Source of the DNA: an uncultured Acidimicrobiaceae bacterium
GTDB lineage: Bacteria; Actinomycetota; Acidimicrobiia; Acidimicrobiales; Ilumatobacteraceae
Length of the DNA stretch: 34,022 nucleotides
Reading direction: 5' to 3'
NCBI GenBank assembly: GCA_903929185.1
Contig: CAIYTS010000115.1
Coordinates: forward strand, 1-34,022
The notes beneath the pieces are model-generated. The model was given only the letters and a program-made list of their open reading frames with translations, was not told the origin of the DNA and ran no database searches. Position 1 is the stretch's first letter, and each line of letters opens with the position of its first letter. Below are positions 13,107-20,488 of this stretch, one piece after another. The position numbers and the translations under genes were made by a program.

Positions 13107-14057
13107 CTACTTCTGTCCCTCGACGGCTATCTTTTCAACGACTCGCAAACGCGCAGATGACGACCTGGGGTTGAGTGCCAACTCAGCCTTGCTTGCATCA
13201 CGTGGCGCACGCACACGAATAACTGATCGTTGAGCACCGCATCCGCATGGAAGGTTTGGTGGGCAATCACAATCGCCTGTCTCGGCTGATCTCATTACAG
13301 ACTTGACGATGCGGTCTTCGCCTGAGTGATACGAAAGAACTGCAAGTCGGGCACCAGGAGCCAACAACGAGATCACATTGCGCAAGGCACCCGGAAGAAT
13401 CTCAAGTTCTGCATTGACTTCGATACGAATGGCTTGAAACGTTCTCTTTGCAGGATGGCCACCACGACGTCGTGCTGGTGCGGGGATTGCCGAACTCACA
13501 ACGTCTGACAAGCGCACGGTTGAATGAATCGGCCGTGCAGCAATAATCGCTTTAGCAATTCGGTACGCGTGACGTTCGTCAGCGTTTCTGCGCAGCATGC
13601 TGGTTAACGATTCTTCGTCGTATGTATTGACAATCACATCTGCGCTCAATGCCTGAGAGCGGTCCATGCGCATATCAAGTGGCGCATCAAATCGATAGGA
13701 AAATCCACGTTCGGCAACGTCAAATTGTGGAGAAGAAACACCGAGGTCGAAGAGGGCACCGGACAACGCGCCGATGCCCTCTTTGGCCGCGATAAGCGCC
13801 GCTGCATCGAAGCGGGCGCGCCGGAGGGCAACGCGTCCACCACAACCAGCGGCTGCAAGAACTTGTTCGGCTGATTCAAGAGCCATGTCGTCTTGGTCAA
13901 TTCCCAGTAACGACACGTTTGGGTGCGCAGTCAAAATTGCTGTGCTGTGTCCGGCACCACCGAGTGTTGCATCAAGAAAAACGCCGTCATTCATGTCAGA
14001 AAAGACATCGATGATTTGTTCCAACATCACCGGTACGTGTGAAAAGACCGCGTTCAT
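13107..14057 (-). CDS. rsmH: 16S rRNA (cytosine(1402)-N(4))-methyltransferase RsmH/MraW
   Basis: MNAVFSHVPVMLEQIIDVFSDMNDGVFLDATLGGAGHS..., FDLGVSSPQFD, AIRIEVNAELEIL, LSYHSGEDRIVK. ATG at 14057 chosen; ORF track extends to a GTG at 14246 through a structured leader. Confidence 0.95.
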   Translation of the reverse strand: MNAVFSHVPVMLEQIIDVFSDMNDGVFLDATLGGAGHSTAILTAHPNVSLLGIDQDDMALESAEQVLAAAGCGGRVALRRARFDAAALIAAKEGIGALSGALFDLGVSSPQFDVAERGFSYRFDAPLDMRMDRSQALSADVIVNTYDEESLTSMLRRNADERHAYRIAKAIIAARPIHSTVRLSDVVSSAIPAPARRRGGHPAKRTFQAIRIEVNAELEILPGALRNVISLLAPGARLAVLSYHSGEDRIVKSVMRSAETGDCDCPPNLPCGCGAQRSVIRVRAPRDASKAELALNPRSSSARLRVVEKIAVEGQK

Positions 14058-14242
14058 GTTGGTACCCGTGTCATGACGGACGGTCCCTGGCAGCCTCCCG
14101 GAAAGCAATTGCCACCCGGATGTATCCCCGGAATGTGCGCGATGGTAGCGGGCGGAGTTGGAGCTAACCACCGTGCCATCCGGGAGACTGCCAGAGACCG
14201 TCGGCCGCTGACTGATTGAAGAGACATGTGGAGCATCGCGAA
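14058..14242 (-). ncRNA. Putative structured 5' leader of rsmH (mraW-type RNA motif candidate)
   Basis: 23-nt arms at 14080-14102 and 14179-14201: minus strand ACGGTCTCTGGCAGTCTCCCGGA / TCCGGGAGGCTGCCAGGGACCGT, all paired with two G-U wobbles; located in the mraZ-rsmH spacer. Confidence 0.65.
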
Positions 14243-14659
14243 TCACGCGCCCGCTCCAGCTATTTGTTCGGTGCCCGAACTGATGTTGCGATCATGACGA
14301 TCTGGTTCCCAGATCTCGACGCGGTCAAAGGATCCAGCGACAATGACACGTGAGCCCAATTGCACTCCTGCGTATTCGCGAAGTTTTTCATCGAGGTTCA
14401 CTCGACCTTGAGCATCGATAGTGACCTCAACGGTGTTGGCGGCAAGTGCCCGCTGTTCGTTGCGGTCCATTTCTCCGCTACGCACCTTTTGCAGCATTTC
14501 CTCTGCGACTTGCTCGAAGGCTTCAGCTGTCAGAACGTCAATGCACTTATCGCGACCAAACGCTAGGTAGCAACGGGGCTCGAGACGGGGGCGAAATGCA
14601 GCAGGGAGCGCGAGTCGACCTTTTGGGTCGAGCTGTCGCTCGTGCACTCCAACAAACAC
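14243..14659 (-). CDS. mraZ: Transcriptional regulator MraZ
   Basis: MFVGVHERQLDPKGRLALPAAFRPRL..., second AbrB-like repeat TIDAQGRVNLDEKLREYAGV; GTG start. Confidence 0.96.
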   Translation of the reverse strand: MFVGVHERQLDPKGRLALPAAFRPRLEPRCYLAFGRDKCIDVLTAEAFEQVAEEMLQKVRSGEMDRNEQRALAANTVEVTIDAQGRVNLDEKLREYAGVQLGSRVIVAGSFDRVEIWEPDRHDRNISSGTEQIAGAGA

Positions 14660-19028: not shown

Positions 19029-20488
19029 GTGTGGTGCTCGCGATTGACGCAGGCACCACCGGAGTGCGCACGCGCGCCGTCTATGACGATGGCACGGAAT
19101 CGTTTTCCGCATACCGCGAGTTCACCCAGTACTTTCCCCAACCAGGCTGGGTTGAACATGATGCGCTTGAAATTTGGGACGCAATTGTGGCCACCTTGCA
19201 GGACGTATGCAGCACACTCACTCAGCCCGTTGCAGCAATCGGAATCACAAACCAACGAGAGACCGTGCTGGCATGGGACAAACGAACAGGTCAACCATCT
19301 GCACATGCGATTGTCTGGCAAGACCGTCGCACTGCAGAACGATGTGATGAATTACTTCCGCATCTTGATCGCGTACGCGCGGTAACTGGTTTAGTTCTCG
19401 ATCCGTATTTTTCCGGAACCAAAGCAGCCTGGTTATTGCAACACACTGCAGTTCCGCCGACCGAACATTTGTGTATCGGAACAATCGACTCGTGGCTGGT
19501 ATGGAAACTCACTGCTGGTGCCGCATTCGTCACTGATCCATCCAATGCAAGTCGCACAATGTTGTTCGACATCAACTCAATGCAATGGAGCGCAGAAATG
19601 TGCGACCTTCTCGGTGTCCCCATGTCCGTCCTGCCCGCGGTGCGACCATCCAGCGGACGATTCGGAGTTACTACTGATGTTCCTGGCGTGCCGAACGGAA
19701 TTCCCATTTCAGGAATTGCTGGCGACCAACAAGCTGCACTCTTCGGACAAGCATGCACTCGCGTTGGCATGGCAAAGAACACGTACGGGACCGGAAGCTT
19801 TGTTCTTCTGAACATCGGCACAACATGTCCGCCGCCCTCGGAGGGAATGCTCACAACTGTTGCATGGGACCTTGGTGATGGTGCACCTGTGTACGCATTA
19901 GAAGGCGCAATATTTGTCACCGGTGCCGCTGTGCAGTGGTTACGTGACGGACTTGGCATCATCAATGATTCTTCCGAGATCGGACCCCTCGCTGAATCAG
20001 TGCCCGATTCGGGCGGAGTGTGTGTTGTGCCAGCATTTACTGGCTTAGGTAGTCCGTGGTGGGATCCATATGCTCGTGGATCAATTATCGGAATTACTCG
20101 CGGCACTACGAAGGCACACATTGCTCGAGCAGTGATTGACGCAATGGTTCATCAAACCCGCGATGCAATTGATGCAATGACTCAGGCAGGCGGAGTCACA
20201 CTTGCTGAGTTGCGTGTTGACGGTGGCGCTTCAGTCATGGATGCAATGCTGCAACGTCAGTCTGATGCACTCGGCGTACCTGTGCTGCGGCCGACAGATC
20301 ACGAGACCACTGCACTTGGCGCTGCATACTTGGCCGGATTAGCAGAGGGCGTGTGGGCAAATCTTGATGAGATTGCTTCGATGTGGACACTCGATAAACG
20401 ATTCGAGCCACAGGAGTCAGACTTATCTCATGCGCAATGGTTACGTGCTGTTGAACGCTCGCGCAGTTGGGCTAGCCCTGGGTCATAA
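19025..20488 (+). CDS. glpK: Glycerol kinase (FGGY family)
   Basis: LAIDAGTTGVRTRAV, GWVEHD, TNQRETVLAW, IVWQDRRTA, DPYFSGTKAAWLL, GTIDSWLVWKLT, GDQQAALFGQ, NTYGTGSFVLL. Confidence 0.95.
   Translation: MSVVLAIDAGTTGVRTRAVYDDGTESFSAYREFTQYFPQPGWVEHDALEIWDAIVATLQDVCSTLTQPVAAIGITNQRETVLAWDKRTGQPSAHAIVWQDRRTAERCDELLPHLDRVRAVTGLVLDPYFSGTKAAWLLQHTAVPPTEHLCIGTIDSWLVWKLTAGAAFVTDPSNASRTMLFDINSMQWSAEMCDLLGVPMSVLPAVRPSSGRFGVTTDVPGVPNGIPISGIAGDQQAALFGQACTRVGMAKNTYGTGSFVLLNIGTTCPPPSEGMLTTVAWDLGDGAPVYALEGAIFVTGAAVQWLRDGLGIINDSSEIGPLAESVPDSGGVCVVPAFTGLGSPWWDPYARGSIIGITRGTTKAHIARAVIDAMVHQTRDAIDAMTQAGGVTLAELRVDGGASVMDAMLQRQSDALGVPVLRPTDHETTALGAAYLAGLAEGVWANLDEIASMWTLDKRFEPQESDLSHAQWLRAVERSRSWASPGS

Follow-up and report, generated by a model that had tools for sequence, protein, structure and literature searches.

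A conserved three-helix RNA at the rsmH start in Acidimicrobiia

An RNA motif known as mraW RNA (RF01746) has been described in Actinomycetales, where it lies in the gap between mraZ and mraW/rsmH (PMC2864571). In Corynebacterium, mapping of the transcription start reportedly places the motif around that site or upstream of it (PMC5784534, PMC3890552), which leaves even its RNA nature in that genus in doubt. RsmH itself methylates base C1402 of 16S rRNA, and its substrate is the assembled 30S subunit, not protein-free 16S rRNA (PMC5053481); METTL15, its human homologue, binds poly(A) as well as h44 RNA, with micromolar affinity and rather unspecifically (PMC10828496). Our literature search for a known rsmH leader or for RsmH autoregulation found no paper on either. 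Here we describe a conserved three-helix RNA of the class Acidimicrobiia, present in one copy per genome and situated immediately ahead of rsmH or within its start.

The DNA that we analysed (referred to as the window; 34,022 nucleotides) is a contig of an incomplete 1.87-Mb genome. On the minus strand, mraZ is followed by rsmH and then by more frames of the same cluster, and Pfam confirmed both the MraZ and the MraW methylase family in the window. Ilumatobacteraceae records (93-94% identity; order Acidimicrobiales, class Acidimicrobiia) are among the named relatives of its RsmH. Three public MAG records titled Bifidobacterium breve (CAMDBY010000067.1, CAMDVC010000029.1 and CAMDLK010000040.1; L190, L191 and L192) contain an RsmH 95% identical to that of the window and are apparently mislabelled. 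From the mraZ stop to the usually expected RsmH ATG (14057) there are 185 bases, which contain an inverted repeat. The features of the locus are as follows.

14243 to 14659, minus strand: mraZ, the upstream gene (Pfam), with its stop TGA at 14243-14245
13107 to 14246, minus strand: rsmH (mraW), full open frame, with a GTG start (14244-14246) overlapping the mraZ stop and an N-terminal extension of 63 residues ahead of the methyltransferase part
14254 to 14257, minus strand: GGAG, likely ribosome-binding site of the GTG start, 7 nt before the GTG (GGAG or GGGAG across the genus)
14055 to 14057, minus strand: ATG of a possible short form of RsmH, without a clear ribosome-binding site
14079 to 14202, minus strand: the whole three-helix structured RNA, from fold and conservation (models R1 and R2 match 14079-14200)
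14175 to 14200, minus strand: P1 5' strand, with 26 model pairs to 14081-14106; pairing runs on to 14202/14079
14081 to 14106, minus strand: P1 3' strand, containing GGGAGG (14094-14099), in many relatives the position of the rsmH ribosome-binding site, with AUG after it
14140 to 14173, minus strand: P2 hairpin (5' strand 14163-14173, 3' strand 14140-14149)
14150 to 14162, minus strand: P2 loop UCCAACUCCGCCC, with CCGCCC at 14150-14155
14113 to 14135, minus strand: P3 hairpin GGGGAUACAUCC, missing from several other families of the class

A sequence-only reading of this gap had proposed a large structured leader RNA upstream of rsmH that pairs as minus-strand RNA and might switch between two folds. 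The long stem is as it described: read on the minus strand, the RNA arms at 14080-14102 and 14179-14201 pair at 23 of 23 positions, two of them U-G, and the pairing extends outward to 14079/14202. The minus-strand fold reaches -109.2 kcal/mol, as compared with -81.3 +/- 4.8 kcal/mol for shuffled sequences (z -5.8, with none of 200 shuffles as stable), and the plus-strand fold is weaker (z -3.5). Function as RNA on the transcribed strand, also proposed from the letters, was borne out by our model, which scores 132.9 bits on that strand and 38.3 bits on the opposite one. The structure consists of three helices, namely the long stem P1, the hairpin P2 with the near-invariant loop CUCCGCCC, and the small hairpin P3. 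P1 is a near-perfect duplex of 23-30 bp, and its stability is so high that release would need an active process. We found no second copy of the element in this genome (an incomplete assembly was searched).

The proposed competing fold fared less well. The 8-nt complementarity between CCCGGAUG and CAUCCGGG is indeed present in the sequence, but the two-fold switch built on it is without support: a fold containing this pairing loses 16.9 kcal/mol relative to the long-stem fold (pair probability about 5e-8), and in relatives the alternative helix is 73.6% paired, as compared with 73.2% in shuffled columns. We rejected a two-state RNA switch because the alternative helix is neither conserved above shuffles nor energetically supported.

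We evaluated the conservation of the structure at increasing phylogenetic depth. In a DNA search covering 60 relatives, the arms and the loop were the best-conserved part of the mraZ-rsmH gap, far beyond the genus, and the homologous loci in relatives are likewise placed between mraZ and rsmH. Pairs were counted on a consensus from an alignment of 37 leaders (26 pairs in P1, ten in P2 and six in P3). At the order level (the 37 leaders), double-sided changes occur in 27 of the 42 pairs, with 132 such cells as against 33 in shuffles, and 94.5% of cells are paired as against 84.5% in shuffles; in a control with the partners shifted by one, two or three columns, pairing falls to 32-45%. The class-level alignment (41 leaders including deeper members of the class, made with MAFFT and without use of the structure) has double-sided changes in 35 of 42 pairs and 88% of cells paired, as compared with 73% in shuffles. 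The covariation check that the earlier reading had suggested is therefore strongly positive, with compensatory changes supporting 35 of 42 pairs, and the large RNA-level structure that it placed at rsmH is upheld by massive compensatory change in relatives together with the bias to the transcribed strand. These covariation counts and controls leave little doubt that an RNA structure at rsmH is conserved.

The distribution of the element was determined with two covariance models. R1, run context-free over 397 genomes of the phylum, matched 22 of them, 21 between mraZ and rsmH and the 22nd at E = 0.1, the latter being the one match beyond the class. R2 detected the element in 308 of 395 Acidimicrobiia genomes (151 of 183 genera) and had no match outside the class in the phylum sample. 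About 30 of these 308 matches are single weak ones (E 3e-4 to 0.01) in family f111, which has small genomes of 0.6-1.1 Mb and in which a diverged form of the RNA may exist. Every one of the 65 loci with neighbours examined has rsmH, and 64 also have a detectable mraZ, the model search having ignored context. Among the named carriers are records of Ilumatobacteraceae, Microthrixaceae and other Acidimicrobiales. The RNA is absent in the cultured Ilumatobacter nonamiensis (L208) and in some relatives (L207 and L211); in all three the two genes overlap or abut (directly overlapping as GTGA in L208), which is another way of coupling mraZ and rsmH. Membership in the mraW RNA family, which had been raised as a possibility, was not upheld. 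The RF01746 model finds nothing in the window, even with E allowed up to 10, has no match at this place in this genome, exceeds its gathering cut-off (50 bits) in 0 of 61 relatives, and gives no match at E <= 0.01 in 13 genomes of the class; identity with mraW RNA was rejected, since neither covariance model detects the other family. That this is a real, class-wide, cis-acting RNA of Acidimicrobiia, new to Rfam 15, is strongly supported.

The position of the element relative to the rsmH start differs among lineages. In several families the P1 3' strand reads GGGGGGCUGNNGAUG or similar, and its AUG or GUG is the in-frame rsmH start. In 23 of 56 distinct leaders, among them most of the examined members of families f22 and f31-f33, the G-run of the P1 3' strand is followed after about 6 nt by an in-frame ATG or GTG of rsmH, and P1 thus covers both the Shine-Dalgarno sequence and the start codon. 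The presence of the rsmH ribosome-binding site and start codon in the P1 3' strand of many relatives points to control of rsmH by the element at the level of translation. Because rsmH starts outside P1 in more than half of the 56 leaders, sequestration of the ribosome-binding site is not a universal reason for the conservation of P1. One order-level relative (L055, at 2023-2144 and immediately past it) has a very short frame that begins at the P1 AUG and ends in a TGA overlapping a further ATG (as ATGA) close to where rsmH starts; this may be a translationally coupled leader peptide.

The window's genus presents a different arrangement. In the members with a complete gap, a single open frame runs from a GTG that overlaps the mraZ TGA into the methyltransferase part, with a Shine-Dalgarno-like GGAG or GGGAG ahead of it, and there are no stops in 2015 in-frame codons (as compared with 62 and 58 in the other two frames). 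Spacer lengths in the genus are all equal to 2 mod 3, varying by multiples of three only. Change at the third codon position is highest in the 5' flank of the RNA (0.244, versus 0.133 and 0.153), and no such excess is present inside the RNA core or in the short 3' flank. It is most likely, judging from this reading-frame evidence, that the start has moved upstream to the GTG in this genus and that the RNA then lies within the RsmH coding sequence. The earlier description of 14058-14242 as an untranslated leader is most likely wrong here, given the uninterrupted frame continuous with rsmH. Three relatives (L048-L050) break the frame yet keep the RNA, indicating that the RNA is the wider constraint. 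A regulatory RNA conserved throughout the class would, on this evidence, have come to sit within a protein-coding frame in one genus.

The P2 loop is the near-invariant part of the element. Its CCGCCC is intact in 39 of the 41 leaders in the alignment (the exceptions are L016 and L118), is recovered by plain string search in 62 of 65 checked upstream regions, and is the part shared with 16S rRNA, persisting in the most divergent leaders. In Escherichia coli 16S rRNA, CCGCCC occurs exactly once, at 1399-1404, spanning C1402, to which the loop C at 14152 corresponds; over a longer stretch, ACUCCGCCCG (14149-14158) is identical to 16S rRNA 1396-1405 at nine of ten positions, and the 16S genes of the class contain ACACCGCCCGUC. 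The loop CCGCCC is followed by a G that sits in a helix of the leader RNA, and the G after CCGCCC in 16S rRNA is helical too. Because about 3% of composition-preserving shuffles of the loop also yield a 7-mer shared with 16S rRNA across C1402, the likeness is suggestive of RsmH substrate mimicry and is not proof of it. A second ACUCCGCCCG in the window (20010-20019) is antisense within a glycerol kinase-like frame and was taken as chance. In other genomes of the genus, GCTCCAACTCCGCCCGCT recurs ahead of an acyl-CoA synthetase-like gene (L057 1052-1070, L058 1050-1070 and L059 995-1015), within a longer conserved stretch (...GCTGGAAC). These sites, with the same 18 nt, were rejected as the same RNA, as the loop letters are common to both and the fold is not (z -0.4 to -1.4; R1 13-15 bits).

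We give roughly even chances to the reading that this uncatalogued cis-acting RNA of Acidimicrobiia controls RsmH production, most likely by RsmH binding its loop. A protein bound at the P2 loop would stabilise the structure and so lower RsmH synthesis; initiation would be blocked in leaders with the ribosome-binding site in P1, and in the window's genus, where ribosomes would traverse the structure as coding sequence, elongation or reinitiation would be hindered. The bound protein would most likely be RsmH, resulting in negative feedback by substrate mimicry, and RsmH is the likeliest ligand because the loop core CCGCCC copies 16S 1399-1404 with the target C1402. The fuller proposal is that RsmH autoregulates: it would bind, and perhaps methylate, a stretch of its mRNA that copies the 16S decoding site around C1402, and in the window's genus this copy would have been absorbed into its own coding sequence. 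We put this forward tentatively, because RsmH prefers the 30S subunit and METTL15 binding is micromolar and rather unspecific. That rsmH is regulated by a bound factor of some kind, with RsmH among the candidates, is clearly the more probable statement. The proposal offers a testable hypothesis for how the amount of an rRNA methyltransferase, one that tunes the decoding site, is set in the cell, and it ties ribosome modification to the division and cell-wall gene cluster.

The same covariation and ribosome-binding-site evidence applies equally if a different binder (a ribosomal protein, another h44-binding factor, MraZ or a small molecule) regulates rsmH translation, with the 16S likeness due to chance or to another binder of the decoding site. 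The 3% chance level of the loop-16S match and the requirement of RsmH for 30S as substrate (PMC5053481) favour such a binder; the element is found at rsmH alone, which is more typical of gene-product feedback than of a general ligand, and the CCGCCC shared with 16S survives in the most divergent leaders, and we consider a different binder possible though somewhat doubtful. Alternatively, the main role of P1 might be that of a stability element or a site of RNase III processing, by which the mRNA levels of mraZ and rsmH are uncoupled, as its 23-30 bp of near-perfect duplex and its retention even where no rsmH start lies in it would allow. A processing site would have no need of a near-invariant 8-nt loop or of the P2 architecture, however, and cleavage would sever the long reading frame in the window's genus, which makes this explanation unlikely.

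The remaining explanations dispense with a functional RNA. The perfectly kept frame in the window's genus would fit conservation mainly of a translated N-terminal extension of RsmH, with the RNA fold as a by-product; we judge this very improbable, given that other families with a broken frame still keep the RNA, that the core has no third-position excess while 35 of 42 pairs covary, and that many relatives begin translation only at the end of the RNA. Pure coding conservation was rejected, as relatives with a broken frame contradict it. In this gene cluster MraZ acts as a DNA-binding regulator, and long inverted repeats can be mobile elements, either of which could suggest an element acting at the DNA level (an operator or a mobile inverted repeat). 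The single copy in the genome led us to reject a mobile repeat, and a DNA-level reading is contradicted by the strand-specific covariation: pairing is retained while the sequence changes, and the G-U pairs and the scores (132.9 versus 38.3 bits) favour the transcribed strand. We regard a DNA element as the least probable of these explanations.

The element shares features with several known systems. Like translational riboswitches and RNA thermometers, it places the Shine-Dalgarno sequence together with the AUG on the 3' side of a stem (23 of 56 leaders); unlike them, it has a single associated gene, no conserved alternative fold was found, and P1 is too stable for a simple thermometer. It resembles the rRNA-mimic autogenous leaders of ribosomal proteins (for example, S15, PMC4684408) in that a structure conserved by covariation lies at the start of the regulated gene; the ribosome-binding site is inside it in 23 of 56 leaders, though most likely not in the window's genus, and the likeness of a conserved part to the rRNA site of the protein is suggestive (here CCGCCC / ACnCCGCCCG at C1402, about 3% by chance). 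It differs from S15-type leaders in that the gene product, the putative binder, is an rRNA-modifying enzyme and in that the RNA is probably within coding sequence in the window's genus. With mraW RNA (RF01746) it shares the mraZ-mraW/rsmH gap, the phylum, and a long hairpin with a conserved C-rich loop. The mraW RNA is a simple hairpin with a ACUUCCCC apical loop, without a three-way junction or CCGCCC, and in most inspected examples rsmH starts well downstream of that hairpin, whereas the present element has three helices and the CUCCGCCC loop; the two elements could be analogues or could share a very remote origin.
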